Assembly (NCBI RefSeq): GCF_024979255.1
Contig: NZ_JANLCN010000001.1
Location: forward strand, 124,001-188,000
Length of the DNA: 64,000 bases
Direction: 5' to 3'
Source: Herbiconiux moechotypicola
GTDB lineage: Bacteria; Actinomycetota; Actinomycetes; Actinomycetales; Microbacteriaceae
The notes under the pieces were generated by a model. That model did no database searches, had not been told where the DNA came from, and saw only the letters and a program-made list of their open reading frames with translations. A program made the position numbers and the translations under genes. Numbering within the stretch: the first letter of the stretch is position 1; the number at the start of each line of letters is the position of its first letter. Below, piece by piece: positions 1,898 through 49,110 of this stretch.

Positions 1898-3311
1898 CGA
1901 CCCGGCTCCTCCGGCGCCCCGGCTGGCGCGCGTAGTCGCGGGCGCGCGACGAGGAGAGTGCGATGAGGATGAGGATGTCGAGCGAGAGCCCGACGAGACT
2001 GGTGTTGAGCGTGATGGCCTCGCCCTGGATGTGCTGCACCGCCACGATGACGATGTTGGTGAGGCTGAAGCACATCACAAGGATGCGCGCCACGTTGCTG
2101 CCTCGTAGCACGGCGATGCCGAGCAGCAGTTCGGCCACGAGGAACACCAGCGCGAAGGCGACGAACACCCAGAGCACGAGATCGCGGTCGAAGAGCTCGT
2201 CGGCGTCGGAGCCCACCTCGATCACGAGCAGCTGCTTCACGCCGTCCCAGTCGAGCAGCACGGCGAGCACGATGGCGGCGGGCACGAAGGCGCGCACGAG
2301 CACCACCACCGCGCCGAACAGGGTCGGTGTGGGGCGGCGCAGGCGCACCGGTGTGTCCGTCGTCGTCGACGATGCGGTCGCGGCACCGGCGCCCGGCACC
2401 ACCGTCGGCTCGGCCGCCACCATGGCCTGAGCCGCCGCGGAGGGAGTGACGGCGCGCAGGTCGATGACGGGCAGGTCGCCGTCGGTCACGATCGCGTCAC
2501 CGCCCCCGTTGCGCGAGTGGTAGCCCGTCGCGAAGTCTTTCAGCACCGTCACGGCGACCGCCGCATCCGCCTCCTGCACCGTCGACACGATGTGGTCGCG
2601 CTCGACGTCGGTGTTCTCGTCGATCTTGTGGGTGATCTGCAGGGTGAACAGCGAGAAACCGACGGCGCGGTCGTAGGTGCCGGCCGCGAGCCAGTCGGTG
2701 TGGTGGCCGCCGGGCAGCAGCCAGCCGTCGGGGCAGCGCCAGAAGCGCACGTGGTGGCGCTTGGCGGGGTTGCCCTTCACCTCCTGCTGATAGGCGAAGT
2801 CCTGGTTGCGGCCGAACAGCATGAGGGGGCTCACCGGGGCCTCGTCGTAGCTGCGGCGCAGGAGCGTGGAGGTGACGATGCGCCAGCCGCTGCGCAGGGT
2901 GAGGTCGTCGGCCCTCGTCCAGCCGGCGGCGAGCATGGCCGAGTGCAGCTGCTCCTCGGAGCCGAGGAGGCCCAGGTTCACCGGGTCGCCGAGCAGGCCG
3001 TCGCTCGTGCGGGTGCGGCCGATGAAGTAGTTGGGCACGTAGATGTTGGTGAGGATGCGGTGCAGGCGCGGCAGCGCGATGTAGGCCACCAGCGCCCAGA
3101 ACACGAGATAGAACCAGATCTGCGCCCAGCCCGAGGCGAAGCCCTCGTTCAGCACGAGGTACGCCAGCCACACCACGGCCACGCCCGCCACGACGAAGAA
3201 CAGGTTGTCGAACAGGGCGTTCAGCGAGAAGCCGCGGCGGCGGCGCAGGCCGATCTCGGTGGCGCGCACACGCGTGTCGTCGCCGGGCGGCGAGCTGTGT
3301 GAGCGGGGCAT
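1878..3311 (-). CDS. LssY C-terminal domain membrane protein
   Basis: This is a 477-residue membrane protein. Two hydrophobic segments lie near residues 33-53 and 63-82. A soluble region at about 95-270 resembles the LssY_C domain (motifs FGRNQDFAYQQE, HHVRFWR, GTYDRAVGFS, TGYHSRNGGG). About four more membrane segments follow at residues 310-460. LssY_C domains occur fused to membrane phosphatases or alone, and their biochemical role is unsettled. The ATG is preceded by a TATCGT box six bases upstream, suggesting leaderless expression. It converges with the small gene to its left. Confidence 0.75.
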   Translation of the reverse strand: MPRSHSSPPGDDTRVRATEIGLRRRRGFSLNALFDNLFFVVAGVAVVWLAYLVLNEGFASGWAQIWFYLVFWALVAYIALPRLHRILTNIYVPNYFIGRTRTSDGLLGDPVNLGLLGSEEQLHSAMLAAGWTRADDLTLRSGWRIVTSTLLRRSYDEAPVSPLMLFGRNQDFAYQQEVKGNPAKRHHVRFWRCPDGWLLPGGHHTDWLAAGTYDRAVGFSLFTLQITHKIDENTDVERDHIVSTVQEADAAVAVTVLKDFATGYHSRNGGGDAIVTDGDLPVIDLRAVTPSAAAQAMVAAEPTVVPGAGAATASSTTTDTPVRLRRPTPTLFGAVVVLVRAFVPAAIVLAVLLDWDGVKQLLVIEVGSDADELFDRDLVLWVFVAFALVFLVAELLLGIAVLRGSNVARILVMCFSLTNIVIVAVQHIQGEAITLNTSLVGLSLDILILIALSSSRARDYARQPGRRRSRVVTPRAS

Positions 3312-3317
3312 AGGGAC

Positions 3318-3323
3318 ACGATA
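3318..3323 (-). promoter_or_regulatory. Putative -10 box of a leaderless promoter (LssY_C gene)
   Basis: On the minus strand TATCGT lies 6 nt before the ATG at 3311, giving the TANNNT-N6-start arrangement. Confidence 0.5.
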
Positions 3324-3332
3324 CCGTCGCGG

Positions 3333-4748
3333 TCAGGCCGCGCGGGCGGGCCCGTCGGGGTCGGGGACCTCGGGGGAGACGTCGCGTACCGAGACCCTCG
3401 GCACGAGTGCCCCGGCCACCACGAGCAGCACCCCCGTGATCGCGATGGCGAGGAAGACCGCCGCCGACGCCGCGATGACGGCCGCCGCATCCGGATCGCC
3501 GGTCGTGCCTCCGGAGGAGGCGCCGATGATGCCGTTCGCCACCGCCCCGAACACTGCGACCCCGACCGCGCTGCCGATCGAGCGGGCGAAGAGGTTCGTG
3601 CCGGTGACCACGCCGCGCTCGTTCCAGGGAACGCTGGACTGCGCCGAGATGAGGCCGGGGGCGGCGACGAGTCCGAAGCCGAACCCGATCACGAAGCATC
3701 CCACGGCCACGACCGCGATGGACGGGTGCTGGGCCGTCGCCGCGAGCAGCACCGCGCCGGCGAGGGCCACGACGGTGCCGAGCATGATCGTGAACCGGAA
3801 GCCGAAGCGGCCGTAGAACCGGCCGCTGACAGTGGCGGCGGTCGGCCAGCCCAGCGTGAGGGTGGCCAGCGCCAGGCCCGAGACGAGCGGCGACACGTCG
3901 AGCGCGCCCTCGAGGTAGGCGGGCACGTAGGAGGTGAGGCCCATCATCATCGCGCCCACGCCGAGGCTCGTGAGGGTGGTGGTGAGGATGAGGCGGCGTC
4001 GCAGCACGGCCGGCGGCAGGATGGGCTCCGCCGCCCTGGTCTGTACCACGGCGAAGGCGGTGAGCGCGACCGCGGCGAGCGCGAACGAGCCGATGCCCGG
4101 CCAGGAGGCCCACTCCCAGGCCTGGCCGCCCTCGAGCAGACCGAGGATGAGTGCGCTCATGCCCACCGTGAGCAGGGCCGCGCCGACGAAGTCGATGCGG
4201 TGGCGCTGCGGGCGCACGCTCTCGTGCAGGCGCCGCACGATCATGACGGCGGCGAGGAGGCACAGCGGCACGTTGACGAAGAAGATGGCGCGCCAGGAGA
4301 GGAATTCCGAGAATACCCCGCCGAGGGTGGGACCGACCACCGCCGAGACGGCCCAGACGCTCGCGATGTAGCCCTGCACCTTGGCGCGCTCGACCACCGA
4401 GTAGATGTCGCCGGCGATCGTGACCGCCATCGGCTGCACCGCCCCCGCCCCGAGGCCCTGCACGGCCCGGAACACGATCAGGGCGGGCATGCTCCACGCG
4501 AGCCCGCAGAGCACCGACCCCAGCAGGAACAGGCCGATGCCCACCAGGATGATGGGCTTCCGCCCTAGGGTGTCGCTGAGCTTGGCGTAGACGGGCACGG
4601 AGACGGCCTGGGCGAGCAGATAGATCGAGAACAGCAGAGGGAACTGGGCGAAGCCGCCGAGCTCGCCCACGATGGTGGGCACGGCCGTGGCGAGGATGGT
4701 GGAGTCGATCGCCACGAGGCCGGTGGTGACCATGAGCGCGATCAGCAC
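3333..4748 (-). CDS. MFS multidrug transporter, DHA2/EmrB-QacA type
   Basis: This 471-residue protein is almost wholly hydrophobic, with about 13-14 membrane helices as expected for DHA2 drug:H+ antiporters. Helix 1 carries the family motif region around DSTILATAVPTI. Loop 2-3 carries motif A (KLSDTLGRKP), and helix 5 has the antiporter-type GPTLGGVF. It probably exports drugs or other amphipathic compounds. The first ATG/GTG start is the GTG at 4748, but the frame stays open upstream with family-like residues (NPVGFRSERGP). The true start may be further back, possibly a CTG at 4832 overlapping the stop of the upstream methyltransferase. The two genes would then be translationally coupled. 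Confidence 0.85.
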   Translation of the reverse strand: MLIALMVTTGLVAIDSTILATAVPTIVGELGGFAQFPLLFSIYLLAQAVSVPVYAKLSDTLGRKPIILVGIGLFLLGSVLCGLAWSMPALIVFRAVQGLGAGAVQPMAVTIAGDIYSVVERAKVQGYIASVWAVSAVVGPTLGGVFSEFLSWRAIFFVNVPLCLLAAVMIVRRLHESVRPQRHRIDFVGAALLTVGMSALILGLLEGGQAWEWASWPGIGSFALAAVALTAFAVVQTRAAEPILPPAVLRRRLILTTTLTSLGVGAMMMGLTSYVPAYLEGALDVSPLVSGLALATLTLGWPTAATVSGRFYGRFGFRFTIMLGTVVALAGAVLLAATAQHPSIAVVAVGCFVIGFGFGLVAAPGLISAQSSVPWNERGVVTGTNLFARSIGSAVGVAVFGAVANGIIGASSGGTTGDPDAAAVIAASAAVFLAIAITGVLLVVAGALVPRVSVRDVSPEVPDPDGPARAA

Positions 4749-4828
4749 GGGTCCGCGTTCGGAGCGGAAGCCGACGGGGTTCGGGGTGCGGCCGCGCGGC
4801 CCGCCGGGCCCGCGCCCGGTCGCGGCGT

Positions 4829-5620
4829 TCAGGGACGTCGCGCGAGGGTGACGCGCGTACGGTAGGGCAGCTCGTAGCCGGTGCGCCCGGCCAGGGCGGG
4901 ATGCGCGTCGAGTAGCTTGTCGAGGCGGTCAGCGAGCTCGTGCCGGGCGGGTGGGTCGAGGGCGATCACGGAGCTGCGGGAGGCGACCAGGGCGTGCATG
5001 CCGTCGCGGTCGAGGGGGAACCTCCAGTCGAACTCGGCGAACGCGTCGCGCACGAGCGGGTCACCCAGCGGCGGGTGGACGGTGTCGAACTCCTCGGCGA
5101 TCGAGGCACCGATCACCTCGGTGAGGGCCTGCACCCAGGGCACCCGGTGGTCGCGCACGTTCCACACCAGGGCGAGCACGCCGCCCGGGCGCAGCACTCG
5201 GGCGATCTCGGCGGAGGCCGCGACCGGATCGACCCAGTGCCAGGCCTGTGCCATGGTCACGAGATCGGCCGAGGCGGCGCCGAGCGGGATGCTCTCGGCG
5301 GTGCCGGCGAGCGTGGTCACCTCGGGGAGCGCGACGGCGAGGCGCTCGCGCATCTGCGGGTCGGGTTCGACGGCGGTGACCTCGGCGCCCTCCGAGACCA
5401 GGGCACGCGTGAACTTGCCGGTGCCGGCTCCGAGGTCGACGACCTCGACGCGGCCCGCCGCTCCCGGGTGGTTGCTGCCCTGCCCGTGGGCCGGCGCGAG
5501 CTCGTCGGGGGAGGTCGCGGCCAGGATCCACTGCACGGCGTCGGCCGGGTAGCCGGGACGGCCCTGTTCGTACGCCGCCGCCTCGGCCCCGAAGCTCTGC
5601 GCCAGCCGTCGATCCTTCAC
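4829..5620 (-). CDS. Class I SAM-dependent methyltransferase
   Basis: This 263-residue protein has the Rossmann-like methyltransferase fold. Motif I is VDLGAGTGKFT (about residues 59-69), the acidic end of strand 2 is AVEPD, and later segments DLVTMAQAWHWVD and RVLRPGGVLALVWN are typical of Methyltransf_11/25 enzymes of the ubiE/YcgJ kind. The GTG at 5620 is chosen because the conserved N-terminus (QSFGAEAAAYEQGRPGYP) begins right after it. The frame is open far upstream only because of antisense codon bias. The substrate is unknown. It lies directly before the MFS exporter gene. Confidence 0.85.
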   Translation of the reverse strand: MKDRRLAQSFGAEAAAYEQGRPGYPADAVQWILAATSPDELAPAHGQGSNHPGAAGRVEVVDLGAGTGKFTRALVSEGAEVTAVEPDPQMRERLAVALPEVTTLAGTAESIPLGAASADLVTMAQAWHWVDPVAASAEIARVLRPGGVLALVWNVRDHRVPWVQALTEVIGASIAEEFDTVHPPLGDPLVRDAFAEFDWRFPLDRDGMHALVASRSSVIALDPPARHELADRLDKLLDAHPALAGRTGYELPYRTRVTLARRP

Positions 5621-40981: not shown

Positions 40982-41776
40982 TCAGGCCGCTATCCCGCGC
41001 GCGTCGAGGGCGTCCTGCACGATGGTGAGGCCGTCGAGCCCCGGCATCTTGGCGATGTGGGCGTCGATCTTCGCGGCCTCCTTGCGGCCCTCTGGACCGC
41101 CCATGAGGTGGCCCATGACGTGCTTCACCTCGTCGTCGGTCATGACGCCGGAGCCCACCGGGCCCCAGAAGTTCTTGAGGGCGAACCGGGCGAGCACCTG
41201 GGCTCGCTTGGACTTGCCGAGCCGCTCACGCGCCTGGGTGGCGTAGAAGGCCACGTGCCGGGCCTCCTGCTTGGCGATGCGCCGCAGCAGCTCGGCGAGC
41301 ACGGGGTGCTTCTCGAGGTCGGCCAGCCGGTTGTAGGCGGCGACGGCCGACCACTCGTTGGCGGCGCCCCACACCATGTGCACGGCGATGAAGCCCGAGC
41401 CCACGATGTTGCCGAGCAGCGACTGCTTCACAGGGTCGAGGCGGTCCTTCCAGCCGAGCTTGAGGCGGGTGGCCTTGAGCTCGTCGAAGTCGACGATCAC
41501 GTCGTGCTCGGCCAGCACGGCCGCGAGGGCTTCGCCGTGCCAGAACTCCTCGCGGTTCCACATCGTCATGAAGGCGGTGACGTCTTCGTCTTTGTGCGAG
41601 GGGGTCACGAGCATGTCGCGCAGGTAGCACACCGTGTGGTATTCGATGTCGCACATGTAGCGCAGCGACCGCAGCGTGCCCTCCGGCAGCGGGTTCTCGC
41701 GGAACACCGAGAAGTCGAGGTCTTGCCAGGCGACCTTGGTGGAGGTCTCGGTGTACTTGTCGATGTCGAAAGCCAT
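40982..41776 (-). CDS. Ferritin-like diiron protein with full ligand set
   Basis: This 264-residue four-helix protein has a complete set of carboxylate/His ligands as in diiron oxygenases and desaturases: E45 (IEYH), E77 and H80 (EFWH), E141 (NEW), and E171 and H174 (EARH). It should bind two irons and activate O2. The substrate is likely a lipid or acyl chain given its position behind a fatty acyl reductase gene, which is inference. No membrane segment is present. It is the downstream gene of the leftward arm of the cassette. Confidence 0.78.
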   Translation of the reverse strand: MAFDIDKYTETSTKVAWQDLDFSVFRENPLPEGTLRSLRYMCDIEYHTVCYLRDMLVTPSHKDEDVTAFMTMWNREEFWHGEALAAVLAEHDVIVDFDELKATRLKLGWKDRLDPVKQSLLGNIVGSGFIAVHMVWGAANEWSAVAAYNRLADLEKHPVLAELLRRIAKQEARHVAFYATQARERLGKSKRAQVLARFALKNFWGPVGSGVMTDDEVKHVMGHLMGGPEGRKEAAKIDAHIAKMPGLDGLTIVQDALDARGIAA

Positions 41777-41786
41777 GGCGGTTCGG

Positions 41787-44159
41787 TCAGCGCGGCTCGT
41801 GGCCGGCCTTCCGGTCTCCTTCCTCGGAGCGGGCGGGATGCGCCGGCGACGCGTCGGGCAGCAGGGCCAGATTACCGGGAACGACCTGACGATCGGATGA
41901 ACGTCTGGTCCAGTCCTCCACCGTCCACTTGGTGCGCTGGGCGTGCCGGTAGAGGGCGGTGTCGGGGTTGACCACGGAGGCGTTGCCCACGAGCTTCAAC
42001 CAGGCGACGTCGGCGAGCGAGTCGCCGTAGCCGTAGGACTGCGTGAGGTTCATGCCGTGCGCGTCGGCGTACTCGCGCAGCCACGCGGCGCGGGCCTCGT
42101 CGACCAGCGGCGGCGTGGCGAGGTAGCCGGTGAGCACGCCCTTGGTGGAGTGCATCTCGCCCGCCACCACGTCGTCGAAGAAGCGCGCGAACGGTTCGGC
42201 GGCCGAGCGGGTGGCTCCGGTGACGAGCACGGTGCGGTGCCCGGCGGCGCGATGCTGGGCCACCCGGTCGAGCGCGTCGGGGATGGCGCGCGAGAGCATG
42301 GCGGCGCCGAACTGGCCCTGCACGAGCCGCTGCAGCTCGTCGACCCGGATGCCCTTGTAGCGGCGCACGAGGGTGCGGATGAACTCGCCGCGGTCGCGGT
42401 GGTCGACCCGGAGGTACTTCGGCACCGAGAGCATCAGCGAGGCGAACTCCTGCGGCCACTGGGCCTTCGGGATGAGGCCGAGCCGCACCCAGAGGTACTG
42501 CTCCACCAGGTTCGACTCCACCACGGTGCCCTCGAAGTCGAACACGGCGAGCACGTCGCTGCGCACGGGCAGTGCGCGCTTGGCGCGGGCCCGGCCGGCC
42601 GGACGGTTGGCGTAGGCCTTCGTGAGGCCGGTGATGGCGGGGAAGTGGATGGTCTGGAAGTACTCGTGCCAGTCGATGTCGGCCACATCGAAGCCGCGGT
42701 CGGCTTTGAGCTCGTCGGGGATCGAGCGGTGCAGCGCGAGGGCGTTGCGGTCGTCGAAGATGAGCTCGGTCTGCACGTAGGCGCGGTAGAGCTCGGCGAA
42801 GTAGCGCAGCTGCTCGAGGCCGCGCTGGCGCTGGTGCAGGGTCTGCGTCCAGGCGCGGGTGCGGTGCGTGGACGGCATGCGGGCCACGGCGCGGTCGGCC
42901 GCGCCCGTGAGTCGCTCCTGCATGCGGAGCGTGCGCTCCACCGAGCGGCCGCCCGGGAAGCGCCAGGACGGCACCTCGATGGGGCCGTCGTCGTGCGGCA
43001 TGGGGTTCTTGGTGAAGAACTCCTTGACGTTCTCGTACATGCTGTGGAACGGCAGCGGGTTCCGCGCCCCCGACACGATCTGGTAGTACTTCGGCTCGTC
43101 GACGGGCGCCGGGGTGACCGCGGCGGCGAGGATGGCGTTCACCACGAAGTCGACCGGGATGACGTCGAGCACCGAGTCGGGTACGCCCGGGAACTCGGGC
43201 AGCTGGCCGCGGCCGTAGGCCATGATGAGCGGGTCGGCCACCTTGAAGCCGTCGAGCCAGCCCGGCACCGGGTGGCGCAGCGCGCTCTCGATGATGGAGG
43301 GACGCACGATGGAGAGCCGGTGGCCCGCGGTGCCCCAGAGCTCTTCGGCGGCGCGCTCGGCGAAGGCCTTGGTGAGGGTGTAGACGTCGGTCCAGCCGAG
43401 CGACTCGGCGCGGATGCGGCCGTGGTCGACCAGTCGCTTGGTGACCCACTCGATGCGGGCGGCCTCCGCATCCTGGGCCACGGCCTGCGGGCCCACCTTG
43501 CCCAGGCGCGAGCGCGAGTCGGCGAGCAGGCTCCGCAGCACCTCGGGCTGACGCGAGGCCATCTCCACGCGGCGGCGCGCCGACTTCGCGGCCTCGTTCT
43601 CGGCCCGCCAGTCGATCTCGTGCTCGAGCGAGGCCTCGAGCGACACGCCCTTGCGCATGCCGCCCACGTAGGCGGTGGAGACGTGCACGACGTGCGGGTC
43701 GGAGCCGGAGGCCAACAGTGCGCCGTAAATGCCGGTGGCGCCGTCGACGTTGGTCTGGAAGGCCTCGTCGATGGGCGGATCGAACGAGACGGTGGAGGCG
43801 CTGTGGATGACGACGTCGATGTCGCCCGGCAGCTCGCCCGGGTTCGCCAGGTCGCCCTGGATGACGGAGAGGCGCTCGCGCACGACGCGCTCGACCTCGG
43901 CCTCGCCGACGAGCTCCCGCCAGGGCCGGAACACCGGCTTCTTCAGCAGGGTCTGCAGCCGCGACTCGCCCGTGGTGCGCGACTTCGGGCGGATGAGCAG
44001 CGACACGCGGGTGTCGGGATGCGCGGAGAGCAGCCGCTCGAGCACGGCCTGGCCGACGAAGCCGGTGCCGCCCGTGAGCAGCACGTGTGCGCTGCCGAGG
44101 GTGAAGTCGGGGAAGGCGGGGCCGGCCTCGGTCTGGTCGATCGAGGTCGAGTCGCTCAT
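41787..44159 (-). CDS. Fatty acyl-CoA reductase fused to HAD-IB phosphatase-like domain
   Basis: This 790-residue protein combines an extended-SDR fatty acyl reductase with a C-terminal HAD domain. Residues about 22-375 carry the NAD(P) motif GGTGFVG (30-36) and catalytic YxxxK with Y260 and K264. The middle region (about 390-530) looks like the FAR C-terminal helical part. The HAD domain (about 535-760) starts FDFEGTV with nucleophile D541, followed by LVTGATRS and GYGDSLADVAWL. The usual second Asp of DxD is E543. The reductase makes fatty alcohols from acyl-CoA or acyl-ACP. The ATG overlaps the stop of the upstream gene. Confidence 0.86.
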   Translation of the reverse strand: MSDSTSIDQTEAGPAFPDFTLGSAHVLLTGGTGFVGQAVLERLLSAHPDTRVSLLIRPKSRTTGESRLQTLLKKPVFRPWRELVGEAEVERVVRERLSVIQGDLANPGELPGDIDVVIHSASTVSFDPPIDEAFQTNVDGATGIYGALLASGSDPHVVHVSTAYVGGMRKGVSLEASLEHEIDWRAENEAAKSARRRVEMASRQPEVLRSLLADSRSRLGKVGPQAVAQDAEAARIEWVTKRLVDHGRIRAESLGWTDVYTLTKAFAERAAEELWGTAGHRLSIVRPSIIESALRHPVPGWLDGFKVADPLIMAYGRGQLPEFPGVPDSVLDVIPVDFVVNAILAAAVTPAPVDEPKYYQIVSGARNPLPFHSMYENVKEFFTKNPMPHDDGPIEVPSWRFPGGRSVERTLRMQERLTGAADRAVARMPSTHRTRAWTQTLHQRQRGLEQLRYFAELYRAYVQTELIFDDRNALALHRSIPDELKADRGFDVADIDWHEYFQTIHFPAITGLTKAYANRPAGRARAKRALPVRSDVLAVFDFEGTVVESNLVEQYLWVRLGLIPKAQWPQEFASLMLSVPKYLRVDHRDRGEFIRTLVRRYKGIRVDELQRLVQGQFGAAMLSRAIPDALDRVAQHRAAGHRTVLVTGATRSAAEPFARFFDDVVAGEMHSTKGVLTGYLATPPLVDEARAAWLREYADAHGMNLTQSYGYGDSLADVAWLKLVGNASVVNPDTALYRHAQRTKWTVEDWTRRSSDRQVVPGNLALLPDASPAHPARSEEGDRKAGHEPR

Positions 44160-45124
44160 GCGTGGTCTCCGTCGTGCTGCCTGGGGGTGGTGGTGGATTG
44201 GGGTTCTGGCCGGCCGATGGGCGGCCTGCGTCGGTGGGCGATCGAGGCGGCGGTGCGGCCGATGCGCCTGGCCAGCCGCGCTCCGGGCCCGCCCGGTGTG
44301 AGCGCCGCGGCCCGTGCATCCGCCACCAGACTGAGCTGTTCGAGGCCCGGGAGACCTCTCACCCTCCCGTCGACCTCGGTCGCCAGCTGCCCGTCGAGGA
44401 GGTGTTCGTAGAAGAAGGTGGTCTCGGATGTGGCGAGGCTCGACGCGCCGATCGGCCACGCGATGCGGCGCAGCCCCCGGCGGGCCAGTGAGCGGGCGCG
44501 CTTCGACCCGGCGAGCCGGCGCTCGGTGTCGGCCACGACGAAGAGCCGGTGCCTGGCCTTGACGGTCGCCACGTGCTCGAGCAGCGCCACGAGCACGGGA
44601 TGCGGGTCGAGCTCGGCGAGGCGGCGGTAGGCGGCCTCGACGATCCACTCGTCGACGGTGACCGAGGCCAGGTGCAGGGCGATGACGTCGGTGCCGATGG
44701 AGTTGGCCCGGAACGACTCGACGATGGGCGTGGCCCGCTCGGCCAGCTCGAGGCCGAGCGCCCGCAGGCGGGGGAGCTGCTGCACCTGCGCCGCGAGCGA
44801 CTCCTGACCGTGGGCCTTCACGATCACCTCGAAGCTGTCGGCGATCCAGTACTTCTCGAACGCCCAGGTGGTGAGGAAGGCGGTGACCCTGGCGTCTTTG
44901 TGGGTGGGGGTGACCAGCACGTTGCGGAGATAGGTCATGGTGGAGCGCTCGAGCTCGCGGGCGTAGGCGAGAAGGCGCACGGTGGCCGGGTCGAGCGGGC
45001 GCTCGGCGAACGCCTCGAGGTCGATCTCGGAGCGGTGGCTGCCGACCGCCGTGCGGGCGAACTCGCGCACGTCGAAGCGGCCGGGCTCGACCCCGGTGGC
45101 GCTCGTGGTGTGCTCTGCAGCCAC
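44156..45124 (-). CDS. Diverged ferritin-like paralogue lacking iron ligands
   Basis: This 322-residue protein is clearly homologous to the diiron protein encoded at 40982-41776. TYLRNVLVTPTHKDARVTAF matches YLRDMLVTPSHKDEDVTAF, and ELDPHPVLVALLEHVATVKARH matches its counterpart near the second ExxH. Three of six metal ligands are changed: E77 to K91, H80 to I94 and E171 to K189. E59, E159 and H192 remain. It is probably a non-catalytic partner or regulator. The GTG at 45124 has AAGGGA five bases upstream. It opens the leftward operon and is divergent from the SDR gene. Confidence 0.75.
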   Translation of the reverse strand: MAAEHTTSATGVEPGRFDVREFARTAVGSHRSEIDLEAFAERPLDPATVRLLAYARELERSTMTYLRNVLVTPTHKDARVTAFLTTWAFEKYWIADSFEVIVKAHGQESLAAQVQQLPRLRALGLELAERATPIVESFRANSIGTDVIALHLASVTVDEWIVEAAYRRLAELDPHPVLVALLEHVATVKARHRLFVVADTERRLAGSKRARSLARRGLRRIAWPIGASSLATSETTFFYEHLLDGQLATEVDGRVRGLPGLEQLSLVADARAAALTPGGPGARLARRIGRTAASIAHRRRPPIGRPEPQSTTTPRQHDGDHA

Positions 45125-45171
45125 AGCTGTCCCTTCGCGTCGGCGGCCTGCTGGGTGGGTGCGCTCGTCGA

Positions 45172-45192
45172 ACGCTACGCACTCCGTAGCGT
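45172..45192. promoter_or_regulatory. Perfect inverted repeat between divergent arms (TetR-type operator candidate)
   Basis: ACGCTACG (45172-45179) and CGTAGCGT (45185-45192) are exact reverse complements separated by 5 nt. The site sits between the two divergent operons and runs into the -10 box of the rightward one. Size and symmetry suit a TetR-family dimer, and two TetR genes are encoded downstream of the same cassette. Confidence 0.6.
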
Positions 45193-45197
45193 ATCCT
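45192..45197 (+). promoter_or_regulatory. Putative leaderless -10 box (SDR gene)
   Basis: TATCCT lies 7 nt before the ATG at 45205 and shares its first base with the inverted repeat. A bound repressor would cover this promoter. Confidence 0.5.
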
Positions 45198-45204
45198 AAG
45201 CAGC

Positions 45205-45990
45205 ATGGCGACGGCTCTGGTGACCGGTGGCACATCGGGGATCGGTGCCGCCTTCGCCCGAGCCCTGGCGCTCCGCGGCTACCATCTCGTGCTGGTAGCC
45301 CGTGACGAGGAGCGGCTCCGGCAGACCGCCGACGCGCTGCTGGCCGAAGGCGCCCCCGGGGTCGAGATCATCTCGGCCGATCTCTCCGTGCGCGCCGATC
45401 TCGACCGGGTCGCCGAACGACTCGAGAGCACCGAGAAGCCCGTCGACTTCCTGGTCAACAACGCCGGCTTCGGCATCCACGGCTCGCTCATCGCCCGCGA
45501 CACGAGCGTGCACGAGCGGGCGCTGTCGGTGATGTGCCTCGCGGTGCTGGTGCTGGGCGGCGCGGCCGGCCGGGCGATGACGGCGCGGCGCCGTGGCACC
45601 ATCCTCAACGTCTCGAGCGTCGCCGGCACCATCGCCACCGGCAACTACTCTGCCGTGAAGGCCTGGACCACGGCGTACACCGAGGGACTCGCCGTCGAGC
45701 TCAAGGGCAGCGGCGTGCAGGTCAGCGCGGTGCTGCCCGGCTGGGTGCGCACCGAGTTCCACGAGCGGGCGGGCATCCGCACGAAGTCCATCCCGTCGTT
45801 CCTCTGGCTCGACTCCGACGAGCTCGTGGCCGAGACCCTGCGCGACGTCGCGCGCGGCACGGTGCTCTCGGTGCCGTCGGCGCGCTTCAAGGTGCTCTTC
45901 TTCTTCACGCGCCACCTGCCCCGGCGCACCATCCGGTGGATCTCCGGCCGGATCTCCTCGAGTCGTCGAACACCGGAGGCCGCCCGATGA
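45205..45990 (+). CDS. Short-chain dehydrogenase/reductase
   Basis: This 261-residue classical SDR has the cofactor motif GGTSGIG (8-14), NNAG, catalytic Ser in NVSSVAG, and YxxxK in NYSAVKAW. A C-terminal basic segment (FFFTRHLPRRTIRWISGRI) may touch the membrane. In this operon a keto group on an acyl- or alkyl-DHAP, or a long-chain aldehyde/ketone, is a plausible substrate (inference). It is translationally coupled to the acyltransferase gene by a 4-bp overlap. Confidence 0.87.
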   Translation: MATALVTGGTSGIGAAFARALALRGYHLVLVARDEERLRQTADALLAEGAPGVEIISADLSVRADLDRVAERLESTEKPVDFLVNNAGFGIHGSLIARDTSVHERALSVMCLAVLVLGGAAGRAMTARRRGTILNVSSVAGTIATGNYSAVKAWTTAYTEGLAVELKGSGVQVSAVLPGWVRTEFHERAGIRTKSIPSFLWLDSDELVAETLRDVARGTVLSVPSARFKVLFFFTRHLPRRTIRWISGRISSSRRTPEAAR

Positions 45991-46751
45991 GCGACACGTA
46001 CGAGCACAAGCACCTCATCCGCGCCCCGAAAGACCGCTTCACCTCCGGCGTCATGGCCGGCATGCGGTTCGTGGCGCAGCGCATGCTGCTGAAACCCGTC
46101 GTGTGGTCGGTCACCCGCGTGAGCGTGCGCGGCAAGGATGCGGTCAAGGGCGTGCAGGGCGCGTTCATCGCGGTCGCGAACCACTCCAGCCATCTCGACG
46201 CCCCGCTCATCATGTGCGCGCTGCCGCGGCGGCTCGGGCGCTACCTGGCGGCGGGAGCGGCGGCCGACTACTTCTTCGACATCTGGTGGCGGCGCATCCT
46301 CACCTCCCTCTTCTTCAACGCCTTCCCGATCGATCGCACGGGAACGGCGGCGCGCCAGGGCGTGTCGAAGAAGCTGCTCGGCCGCGGGGTGCCGCTGCTG
46401 GTGTTTCCCGAGGGCACCCGCTCGAAGACCGGCCAGATGGCGGAGTTCAAGGCGGGGGCGGCGGCCTTGTCGATCTCGTGCGACGTGCCGTGCGTGCCCG
46501 TCGCGATCGTGGGCGCGAGCCTCGCCATGCCCCGCGGGCGCAACTGGCCCATCCCGGGCCGCCCACCGGTGGCCGTCGTGTTCGGCGAGCCCATGCTCGG
46601 CCGTCCCGGCGAGACACCCGACCAGTTCTCGGCCCGCATCGCGCGGGAAGTACGCCGGCTGCACGAACGGGAGGCGGCGACCGCCGAGATCCCGTCGCTG
46701 CCGGCGATCAGGCGCACCCGCGCCCGCAGCACCACGAAGGGAGCCGCATGA
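45987..46751 (+). CDS. 1-acyl-glycerol-phosphate acyltransferase family (PlsC-like)
   Basis: This 254-residue membrane-associated acyltransferase has the catalytic NHxxxxD motif in ANHSSHLD (about 63-70) and the acceptor-binding motif FPEGTRSKTG (about 141-150). It also has VPVAIVGAS downstream. Family members acylate lysophosphatidate, glycerol-phosphate or DHAP with acyl-CoA/ACP. Between an SDR and an alkyl-DHAP synthase homologue, DHAP acylation is an attractive guess. ATGA overlaps bind it to both neighbours. Confidence 0.87.
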   Translation: MSDTYEHKHLIRAPKDRFTSGVMAGMRFVAQRMLLKPVVWSVTRVSVRGKDAVKGVQGAFIAVANHSSHLDAPLIMCALPRRLGRYLAAGAAADYFFDIWWRRILTSLFFNAFPIDRTGTAARQGVSKKLLGRGVPLLVFPEGTRSKTGQMAEFKAGAAALSISCDVPCVPVAIVGASLAMPRGRNWPIPGRPPVAVVFGEPMLGRPGETPDQFSARIAREVRRLHEREAATAEIPSLPAIRRTRARSTTKGAA

Positions 46752-48490
46752 CCGACGTCAAGCACATGAAGTGGTGGGGGTGGGGCCTCGAGGGTGTCGG
46801 CTTCCACTTCGAGGACAAGCCGGAGTTCGCGCCCTTCGTGAAGAAGGCCGTGGGGCTCGACGTGAGCGTGCCGCCGGTGCCGCCGCTGTCGTTCGACCAG
46901 CTCACCGTGCCGCCCGTGCGGCTCTCGCCCTCGTTCGAGGCCGAGCTCGTGGCGATCGTGGGCGAAGAGGCCGCGTCGACCGCCGACGAGGTGCGCGTGG
47001 TGCACACCTACGGCAAGTCCATCCGCGACCTGCTGCGCATCCGCCGCAACGAGATCGCGCGGGTGCCCGACATCGTGGTGTATCCCGGTGACGAGTGGGA
47101 GGTGCAGCAGATCGTCGACGCCGCCGTCGCCGAGGGCGCCGTCATCATCCCGTTCGGCGGAGGGTCGAACATCGCGGGCAGCCTCGAGCCGCTGGTGGGG
47201 GAGACCCGCAGCATCGTGTCGCTCGACCTCGGCCGGCTGAACCGCGTTCTCGCGATCGACGAGTACTCGGGCCTCGCGCGCATCCAGGCCGGCGCTCAGG
47301 GCCCCGACATCGAGGAGCAGCTGAACGCCAAGGGCTGGACGATGGGGCACTTCCCCGACTCGTTCACGCACTCCACGCTCGGCGGCTGGGTCGCGACCCG
47401 ATCGTCGGGCATGCAGAGCGACAAGTACGGCGACATCGCCGACATCACGCGGGGGCTGCGGATGGTGCGCCCCGGCGAGATCGTCGAGCTGCGGCCCCTG
47501 CCGTCGACCTCGACCGGGCCGTCGGTGCGCGAGATGATCATCGGCTCGGAGGGTCGCCTCGGAGTCATCACCGAGGTGACGGTGCAGGTGCACCGGCAGC
47601 CCGAGGTGCGTGAGGTGCAGGCCTACTTCTTCCCCACCTGGAAGGCCGGGCTCGCCGCGATGCACGAGATCGCGGAGTCCGACGCCTCGCCGTCGATCAC
47701 CCGGGTGTCGGATGCGCGGGAGAGCGGCTTCTCGCTGGCCACCCGCAAGGCGTCGAAGGGCGTGTCGGGGGCCGCGCAGAGCGTGCTCATGTCAGTGCTC
47801 AAGCGCCGCGGGTGGAATCTCGAGGAGATGTGCCTGTCGTTCATCGGTTATGAGGGCACCGCCTCCCACGTGTCGTACGAGAAGAAGCTCGTGGGCGCCA
47901 TCGTGAAGAAGCACGGAGGCATCGGCGTGGGCAAGGGCCCGGGTGCCCTCTACGACCAGAAGAAGTTCGACACGCCCTACCTCCGCGACTTCTTGCTCGA
48001 CCGGGGTGCGGCCGCCGACGTGTCGGAGACCGCGGCGCCGTGGTCGAAGCTGCAGGAGGTCTACGACGCCACCCGTGCGGCGGCCGATGCCGCCTACGAG
48101 GCGCTCGGCGTGCACGGCTGGATCATGTGCCACCTCTCGCACTCCTACCACTCGGGCGCGTGCCTGTACTTCACCTTCGCCTTCGTGCACGGCGACGACC
48201 CCATCGCCCAGTACGAGGTGGTGAAGCAGTCGATCCAGCAGGCGTTCCAGGATGCGGGCGGAACGCTGTCGCACCACCACGGTGTGGGCGTGGAGCACGC
48301 GCCGTGGATGGAGCAGGACATCTCGGTGGGCGGCGTGAAGCTCATGCAGGGACTGTTCGACTCTGCCGATCCGGCCGGGCTGTTCAACCCCGGCAAGGTG
48401 CTGGGGCCCGCGCAGGCGACGCCCGAGTCGGTGGCCGCGCTCCGGGCCGCGGCGCCCCGCGCCGACGTGGCGGAGGTGCCGGCGCCCTAA
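46748..48490 (+). CDS. FAD-binding oxidase, alkyldihydroxyacetonephosphate synthase-like
   Basis: This 580-residue flavoprotein resembles alkyl-DHAP synthase (AGPS), which swaps the acyl chain of acyl-DHAP for a fatty alcohol and so makes the ether bond. The PCMH FAD domain (about 100-280) has PFGGGSNIAGSLEP and the FAD loops THSTLGGWVATRSSG and GSEGRLGVITEV. The C-terminal FAD-linked oxidase cap contains the three-His motif H509-H511 in SHHHGVGVEH, a hallmark of AGPS, followed by GLFNPGKVLG. With the reductase in the opposite arm supplying alcohol, ether-lipid synthesis is the likely role. Confidence 0.85.
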   Translation: MTDVKHMKWWGWGLEGVGFHFEDKPEFAPFVKKAVGLDVSVPPVPPLSFDQLTVPPVRLSPSFEAELVAIVGEEAASTADEVRVVHTYGKSIRDLLRIRRNEIARVPDIVVYPGDEWEVQQIVDAAVAEGAVIIPFGGGSNIAGSLEPLVGETRSIVSLDLGRLNRVLAIDEYSGLARIQAGAQGPDIEEQLNAKGWTMGHFPDSFTHSTLGGWVATRSSGMQSDKYGDIADITRGLRMVRPGEIVELRPLPSTSTGPSVREMIIGSEGRLGVITEVTVQVHRQPEVREVQAYFFPTWKAGLAAMHEIAESDASPSITRVSDARESGFSLATRKASKGVSGAAQSVLMSVLKRRGWNLEEMCLSFIGYEGTASHVSYEKKLVGAIVKKHGGIGVGKGPGALYDQKKFDTPYLRDFLLDRGAAADVSETAAPWSKLQEVYDATRAAADAAYEALGVHGWIMCHLSHSYHSGACLYFTFAFVHGDDPIAQYEVVKQSIQQAFQDAGGTLSHHHGVGVEHAPWMEQDISVGGVKLMQGLFDSADPAGLFNPGKVLGPAQATPESVAALRAAAPRADVAEVPAP

Positions 48491-49110
48491 GAGCGGTCGG
48501 CTCCCTGGGGGTGGTCGGCCGTCTCGCCCCCGGTAACGGGTGGGGTGAGGGCGGGCCAGAGGAGGGTGAGCAGGCGGTCGGCCCACTCCTCGTCGGGCTC
48601 GCCGCCGCGGATGACGTGGCCGACGGCGGAGCCGAGCAGCACGCTGACCACGAGCTTCACGTCGAGGCCCGCGCGCAGGTCTCCGCGCGCGACGGCGTCG
48701 TCGAGGAAGGCCACCAGCTGGTGGCTGCGCATGCGGATCATGTCGCGAAGCTGCTCGGTGAACGGGGCGCCGTCGTCGATGAGGATGGCGGCCACGGTGC
48801 CGCGGCCGACGATCTCTTGCACTCGCACGCGGGCGGCGCCGAGCAGCCAGTGCAGGGTGTCGTAGGTCGACATGCCGCTCGGCAGGGTGACCTCGGTGGT
48901 GGCCGCGTCGATCGCGGCGCCGAGTAGGGCCTCGCGGTCTTCGTAGCGGCGGTAGATGGTCGTCTTCGCCACGCCCGAGGCGGCGGCCACGGCCTCCACG
49001 TTGATGCCGCCCGGCCCGCGGTCGCGCAGCAGCTGGAGCGTCGCCTCGACGATGCGCCGGTCGGCGGCGTCGCGGCCGTCGGAGGGCCCCGCACCGTCTT
49101 CGACGCTCAT
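48487..49110 (-). CDS. TetR family transcriptional regulator 1
   Basis: This 207-residue regulator has an N-terminal TetR helix-turn-helix (about 18-65) with INVEAVAAASGVAKTTIYRRYEDREALL. The C-terminal ligand domain includes the segment LDVKLVVSVLLGSAVGHVIRGG. Its stop overlaps the stop of the AGPS-like gene by 4 bp in convergent orientation. It is a candidate repressor for the palindrome at 45172-45192. The inducer is unknown, and a fatty acyl compound is a common choice in such settings. Confidence 0.88.
   Translation of the reverse strand: MSVEDGAGPSDGRDAADRRIVEATLQLLRDRGPGGINVEAVAAASGVAKTTIYRRYEDREALLGAAIDAATTEVTLPSGMSTYDTLHWLLGAARVRVQEIVGRGTVAAILIDDGAPFTEQLRDMIRMRSHQLVAFLDDAVARGDLRAGLDVKLVVSVLLGSAVGHVIRGGEPDEEWADRLLTLLWPALTPPVTGGETADHPQGADRS

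Follow-up and report, generated by a model that had tools for sequence, protein, structure and literature searches.

A conserved actinobacterial gene cassette as a candidate aerobic plasmalogen pathway of the animal type

The animal peroxisomal pathway to plasmalogens (vinyl-ether lipids) uses FAR1, GNPAT, AGPS, PexRAP and PEDS1. The subject of this paper is a cassette of six genes, A to F, in Herbiconiux, an aerobic member of the Microbacteriaceae from soil and plants. The products are predicted to perform the same steps: F is a homologue of AGPS (alkyl-dihydroxyacetone phosphate (DHAP) synthase) and B of fatty acyl-coenzyme A (CoA) reductase (FAR), while D is a short-chain dehydrogenase (SDR) and E an acyltransferase. 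The cassette lies in a 64-kb window, meaning the whole stretch of DNA analysed here, to which all positions refer unless another contig or locus is named; the window comes from a genome that is 99.9% complete (contig C1, 4.28 Mb). It differs from the animal pathway in that the Herbiconiux genes are gathered in one cassette, the FAR is fused to a HAD domain, and the acyltransferase is of the PlsC type; PEDS1 was not found here, and in its place there is a soluble diiron pair, A and C. On balance, we consider it somewhat more likely than not that the six genes encode an AGPS-type route to plasmalogens, aerobic and akin to that of animals, with A/C as a new vinyl-ether desaturase.

Two bacterial systems invite comparison. 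In Myxococcus xanthus, which is also aerobic, MXAN_1676-1674 and the elb operons likewise provide AGPS, a FAR, an acyltransferase and a nicotinamide adenine dinucleotide (NAD)-dependent epimerase/dehydratase, and the lipids have branched chains and vinyl ethers, as is predicted here; M. xanthus differs in depending mainly on ElbD, in forming its vinyl ether with the membrane protein CarF, and in its gene layout (PMC9131029). The anaerobic PlsA/PlsR route of clostridia ends in the same lipid class as is proposed here, but it reduces diacyl lipids directly, without DHAP, FAR or AGPS (PMC9702350). According to a 2022 review, plasmalogens are absent from aerobic bacteria except myxobacteria, and true CarF is otherwise found only in Leptospira (PMC9131029). 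Our literature searches found no paper linking genes to the dimethylacetals of Microbacteriaceae, and nothing on AGPS in actinobacteria; in the openly available literature, the sole co-mention of 'plasmalogen' and 'Microbacteriaceae' was in a review article about the microbiome of human blood.

The genes are arranged in two divergent arms, transcribed in the order C, B, A on the left and D, E, F on the right, with the starts of C and D 80 bases apart. The original prediction had described two such arms with six genes at 40982-48490, and all six are indeed present and tightly packed. The pairs C/B, D/E and E/F overlap by 4 bases and B and A are spaced by 10 bases, and each arm is therefore very probably one operon. 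We scanned 84,980 species genomes and obtained 331 relatives of F, the best 80 of which are the named loci examined here. The full set of six gene types is present in about 65 of these 80, and 59 of those share the divergent arrangement; seven have D-E-F only and five have B-D-E-F, and some are interrupted by contig ends. Among the genera concerned are Herbiconiux, Plantibacter, Amnibacterium, Subtercola, Frigoribacterium, Agreia, Salinibacterium, Labedella, Phytoactinopolyspora, Ruania and Streptomyces. This conservation across genera and families confirms that the cassette is a real unit, beyond chance. Subtercola cassettes (for example L042, at about 2767-5201) have two additional genes between B and A; one encodes another PlsC-like acyltransferase, and the product of the other resembles LarA on visual inspection.

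In a search of the PDB, protein F matches AGPS from Dictyostelium (2uuu, E-value 6e-119) and guinea pig (4bby, 3e-83), far ahead of other flavin adenine dinucleotide (FAD) oxidases of the lactate/glycolate kind, which match at about 1e-23 or worse; an identity as GlcD or lactate oxidase is ruled out on this basis. F contains FAD_binding_4 (PF01565) and FAD-oxidase_C (PF02913) domains (Pfam/NCBIfam). Ten AGPS positions were checked, which we take to be catalytic and disease-linked residues. Guinea pig R182, H300, T309, R419, R515, C576, Y578 and H615-617 correspond to R83, H201, T210, R319, R413, C472, Y474 and H509-511 in F, and all are identical. Nine of the ten are invariant across the 80 named F orthologues, the remaining one, T210, being T in 75 and S in five. 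The idea that the catalytic tyrosine varies was rejected: the M found in some orthologues is at position 467, and the tyrosine is Y474, which is invariant. It is well supported that F is an alkyl-DHAP synthase homologue, with a predicted ether-forming activity, and the AGPS-like flavoprotein with a three-histidine motif in the original prediction is borne out.

The other three proteins of the core have also been analysed. B contains NAD_binding_4 (PF07993, male sterility/FAR; 166 bits) and HAD-IB (102-105 bits) domains (Pfam/NCBIfam), as expected for the fatty acyl reductase-HAD fusion originally proposed, and matches the fatty acyl-CoA reductase 7eoz in the PDB (E-value 4e-48). Its YxxxK residues, Y260 and K264, are invariant among homologues, and a Sterile domain scores 27.9 bits, under the cut-off of 35.4. 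Motif I of its HAD domain reads D541-x-E543, D-x-E replacing D-x-D, in 65 of 70 homologues (the rest have Q or H), and the phosphatase activity may therefore be altered or lost. D matches adh_short (PF00106, 131 bits) and has an invariant YxxxK motif; its top NCBIfam model is a mycolate reductase, at 163 bits, under the cut-off of 380. E matches the PF01553 acyltransferase family (83.5 bits), and its HX4D motif and the E of FPEGT are invariant across 79 loci. The proposed PlsC-like acyltransferase and SDR are thus both there with their motifs intact, and homology, residues, synteny and co-occurrence all support the likeness of the core (FAR, acyltransferase, AGPS, SDR) to the eukaryotic route. 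B, D, E and F likely synthesise ether lipids, from the substrates that we infer below.

Plant and mycobacterial acyl-acyl carrier protein (ACP) desaturases, such as stearoyl-ACP desaturase and DesA2, carry the ligand pattern E, ExxH, E, ExxH. The same pattern is seen in A, where E45, E77xxH80, E141 and E171xxH174 are kept in all 65 orthologues. C is about 35% identical to A. In all 63 of its orthologues three of the six metal ligands are replaced, with K/R at A's E77, I/L/V/M/T at H80 and K/R/N at E171, so that two of the three are nearly always K or R. Because of this loss it is plausible that, within the A/C pair, catalysis is possible for A only; of the diiron proteins (plural) in the original prediction, A keeps its six ligands and stands, and C does not. 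AlphaFold models of A and C are both of high confidence, with a mean pLDDT (predicted local distance difference test) of 90 each. The best fold matches for A are the plant acyl-ACP desaturases (2uw1/4v0j; Z 18.3, 3.1 Å, 232-233 residues), with DesA2 at Z 17.5, R2-like oxidases at about 16 and the aldehyde-deformylating 6d9f at 15.4; Foldseek E-values for A are weak, the best being 1.7e-3. A differs from the acyl-ACP desaturases in sequence (13-19% identity), in its ether-lipid gene context, and in having a metal-less paralogue alongside. C also resembles acyl-ACP desaturases in fold (Z 17.8), and in addition matches 2inp_D (phenol hydroxylase) and 1t0q_B (toluene/o-xylene monooxygenase), which we take to be non-catalytic beta subunits. 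The ligand pattern and these model-based matches together suggest that A is probably a catalytic subunit and C a supporting, non-catalytic partner.

Vinyl ethers yield dimethylacetals on acid methanolysis. Dimethylacetals have been known in aerobic Microbacteriaceae since 2000, going by work cited in two later papers (PMC5945732, PMC7472656). Four Subtercola species have i-16:0, a-15:0 and a-17:0 dimethylacetals amounting to 19-27% in total, with the same chains as the fatty acids, and Agreia has little (PMC5945732). Frigoribacterium adelgis and F. faeni have a-15:0 aldehyde/dimethylacetal plus 'C14:0 2OH' (PMC12823222). The latter assignment needs care: gas chromatography-mass spectrometry of Kineococcus showed that the MIDI system reported a-15:0 dimethylacetal, a component of Kineococcus rubinsiae, as C14:0 2-OH (PMC7472656). 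The 3.9-15.6% of 2OH-C14:0 given by MIDI for the same Subtercola species (PMC9287328), and the 17.0% of C14:0 2-OH in another table for F. faeni (PMC7033078), are in line with such a misreading. In Subtercola endophyticus AK-R2A1-2 (CP087997.1), no 2OH-C14:0 was detected (PMC9287328). 'C14:0 2-OH' is also listed for Frondihabitans and other actinobacteria, and may there too be misread a-15:0 dimethylacetal. The cassette is present in strains of S. vilae, S. boreus, S. lobariae, F. faeni and Agreia pratensis. Given the dimethylacetals of these cassette-bearing relatives, the end product is likely to be a vinyl-ether lipid (plasmalogen), beyond an alkyl ether.

The known vinyl-ether enzymes were searched for in 24 cassette-bearing genomes, including that of the window as well as Subtercola, Agreia and Frigoribacterium. 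CarF/PEDS1 (PF10520, Lipid_desat) was found in none of the 24. The PF10520 model does match elsewhere: of 346 sampled actinobacteria it has hits in 15, of which 14 belong to a single family, and the genomes that have A or a close F include none of the 15. These CarF-type genes (at L157 and L158, in G232 and G482, and in 13 more genomes) may in some cases have another activity. The PlsA domain PF09989, the single PlsA/PlsR marker domain searched, was likewise found in none of the 24, with matches in four controls. Since CarF and PlsA were not found, Subtercola and its relatives must form their vinyl ether by some other means. A/C is the sole candidate oxidative pair in the cassette, and by elimination, together with this context, we give about even chances to its being the vinyl-ether (Delta1') enzyme. 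Vinyl-ether desaturation is for the same reason favoured here over the chain desaturation or hydroxylation assigned to these proteins in the original prediction.

On this basis, we propose the following pathway. B would reduce acyl-CoA to fatty alcohol and E would acylate DHAP, after which F would replace the acyl chain with the alcohol, thereby forming the ether bond. D would reduce alkyl-DHAP to alkyl-glycerol-3-phosphate, which would enter normal phospholipid synthesis. Finally, A, as a soluble diiron desaturase with the pseudo-enzyme C, would introduce the 1'-2' double bond of the vinyl ether. Both arms would be controlled by the neighbouring regulator TetR1 from one operator.

The distribution of the genes has been compared in a sample of 150 Microbacteriaceae genomes, counting A and F at 65% identity or above. 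For these two of the six genes, the phylogenetic profile suggested as a check in the original prediction shows A and F together in 38 genomes, A alone in six, F alone in two and neither in 104 (Fisher p 9e-27, shared ancestry ignored). One of the A-only genomes (G165) is cut by a contig end, and both F-only genomes are 77-85% complete. With a close AGPS orthologue in 40 of 150 genomes, the pathway is not rare; the original prediction had called ether lipids of this origin rarely reported in aerobic actinobacteria. In the tree of F, the Streptomycetaceae with the whole cassette (L058, L073, L074 and L078; F 67-69% identical) nest inside Microbacteriaceae, which suggests that the six genes moved as one unit, likely by horizontal transfer. 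A was searched for and not found in the genomes of L056, L062, L075, L088, L090 and L095, and A-less status in the tree holds for these six; the exceptions are L071, a 4.4-kb contig, and L110. Microlunatus kandeliicorticis and Segeticoccus rhizosphaerae are among the species without A. The genome of L110 (Microlunatus endophyticus, G060, contig C2 at about 608529-609317) has an A-like gene in three stop-separated pieces, which reflects either decay of the gene or an error in the sequence.

A number of observations weigh against A/C as a vinyl-ether desaturase in a plasmalogen pathway. The strongest is that five Microbacteriaceae genomes, from three genera, carry the C-A pair without B or a close F (L121, L122, L123, L125 and L126), and the pair may therefore act on something else. 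Distant homologues of A (38-48% identity) occur in the phylum unlinked to the other cassette genes, and A itself fails the Pfam cut-off for FA_desaturase_2 (PF03405), at 19.0 against 22.7 bits. An enzyme family outside those searched could make the vinyl ether. On the chemical side, no report of dimethylacetals was found for Herbiconiux, the main text of PMC10011130 naming none; nor is a dimethylacetal named in the main text of the paper on Salinibacterium metalliresistens, which has the cassette. The correlation of chemistry with cassette is backed by positive cases, but there is no clear-cut negative case among named species. The five C-A-only genomes, the unlinked distant homologues and the acyl-ACP desaturase fold would all fit an arrangement in which B-D-E-F make alkyl ethers, A/C desaturates or hydroxylates another chain (e.g. 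an acyl chain), and the vinyl-ether enzyme is encoded elsewhere. We regard this as rather unlikely, in that A/C shares an operon with the reductase and adjoins the ether genes in most cassettes, the Streptomycetaceae keep C-A together with the ether genes, and the searches for CarF and PlsA in the 24 cassette-bearing genomes came back empty.

Three further explanations were considered. FAR, PlsC and SDR are broad families, B has an atypical HAD domain (D-x-E), and the activity of F is a prediction, so that F might use other substrates and the cassette make a different specialised lipid or wax; among oxidases of solved structure, however, F is much nearer to the true AGPS enzymes than to the rest, and it keeps all the checked positions, and cassette-bearing species contain dimethylacetals, which makes this improbable. 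It is very improbable that the dimethylacetals come from the anaerobic PlsA/PlsR route or from CarF, with the cassette unrelated to them: PlsA/PlsR has been reported in some Actinomycetales (PMC9702350), but with one marker domain searched for each route, neither PF09989 nor PF10520 was found in the 24 cassette genomes, and both models match elsewhere. Finally, the weaker fold match of A to the aldehyde-deformylating 6d9f recalls the alkane pair of cyanobacteria, acyl-ACP reductase plus aldehyde deformylating oxygenase, of which B and A could be a counterpart. The best fold matches, about 3 Z units higher, are acyl-ACP desaturases, and an alkane pair would leave AGPS, PlsC, SDR and C unexplained; this explanation has next to no likelihood and was rejected.

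The arms are separated by a 19-bp palindrome, CGCTACGNNNNNCGTAGCG (half-sites CGCTACG and CGTAGCG around CACTC), which lies in the gap between C and D. The window contains no second exact copy; if two mismatches are tolerated, 0.64 matches are expected by chance. Of the named loci, 16 have a TetR1 orthologue (about 45% identity or more) near F, and every one of them contains the palindrome, either between C and D or next to the TetR gene, as in Plantibacter. Outside TetR1 loci, it was seen in the 2.3 Mb of fetched loci only at L082, a locus that ends just past F, and in the genome copy of the window itself. The pairing with TetR1 has a Fisher p of 6e-16, relatedness ignored. Because the palindrome tracks TetR1 orthologues across loci, TetR1 is the probable regulator of the cassette, and the palindrome its predicted operator. 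The features are collected in Table 1.

Table 1. Features of the candidate ether-lipid cassette and its surroundings, in window positions.
Feature	Position	Strand	Basis
Gene A, diiron protein with acyl-ACP-desaturase fold, 264 aa	40982..41776	-	Ligands, predicted structure
Gene B, fatty acyl-CoA reductase fused to HAD-IB domain, 790 aa	41787..44159	-	PF07993, HAD, 7eoz
Gene C, pseudo-diiron paralogue of A, GTG start	44156..45124	-	Ligand losses, shared fold
Palindrome, candidate TetR1 operator, between arms	45173..45191	no strand	Co-occurrence with TetR1 orthologues
Gene D, short-chain dehydrogenase (SDR), 261 aa; candidate alkyl-DHAP reductase	45205..45990	+	PF00106, YxxxK
Gene E, acyltransferase of the PlsC type, 254 aa; candidate for the acylation of DHAP (or of the sn-2 position)	45987..46751	+	PF01553
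Gene F, alkyl-DHAP synthase (AGPS) homologue, 580 aa	46748..48490	+	2uuu match, ten AGPS positions
TetR1, probable cassette regulator	48487..49110	-	PF00440, palindrome co-occurrence

In its widest form our proposal is a tentative one: A/C may be a third, unrelated type of vinyl-ether enzyme, apart from CarF/PEDS1 and PlsA/PlsR, which ends an AGPS plasmalogen pathway, and aerobic plasmalogens may be widespread but hidden as 'C14:0 2-OH'. The cassette would supply the genes for the dimethylacetals of Microbacteriaceae, together with a candidate for the last enzyme, a regulator and an operator. If this is true, the timing and the number of origins of oxygen-dependent plasmalogen synthesis would have to be reconsidered. 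A re-reading of old fatty-acid tables could reveal further aerobic plasmalogen producers.

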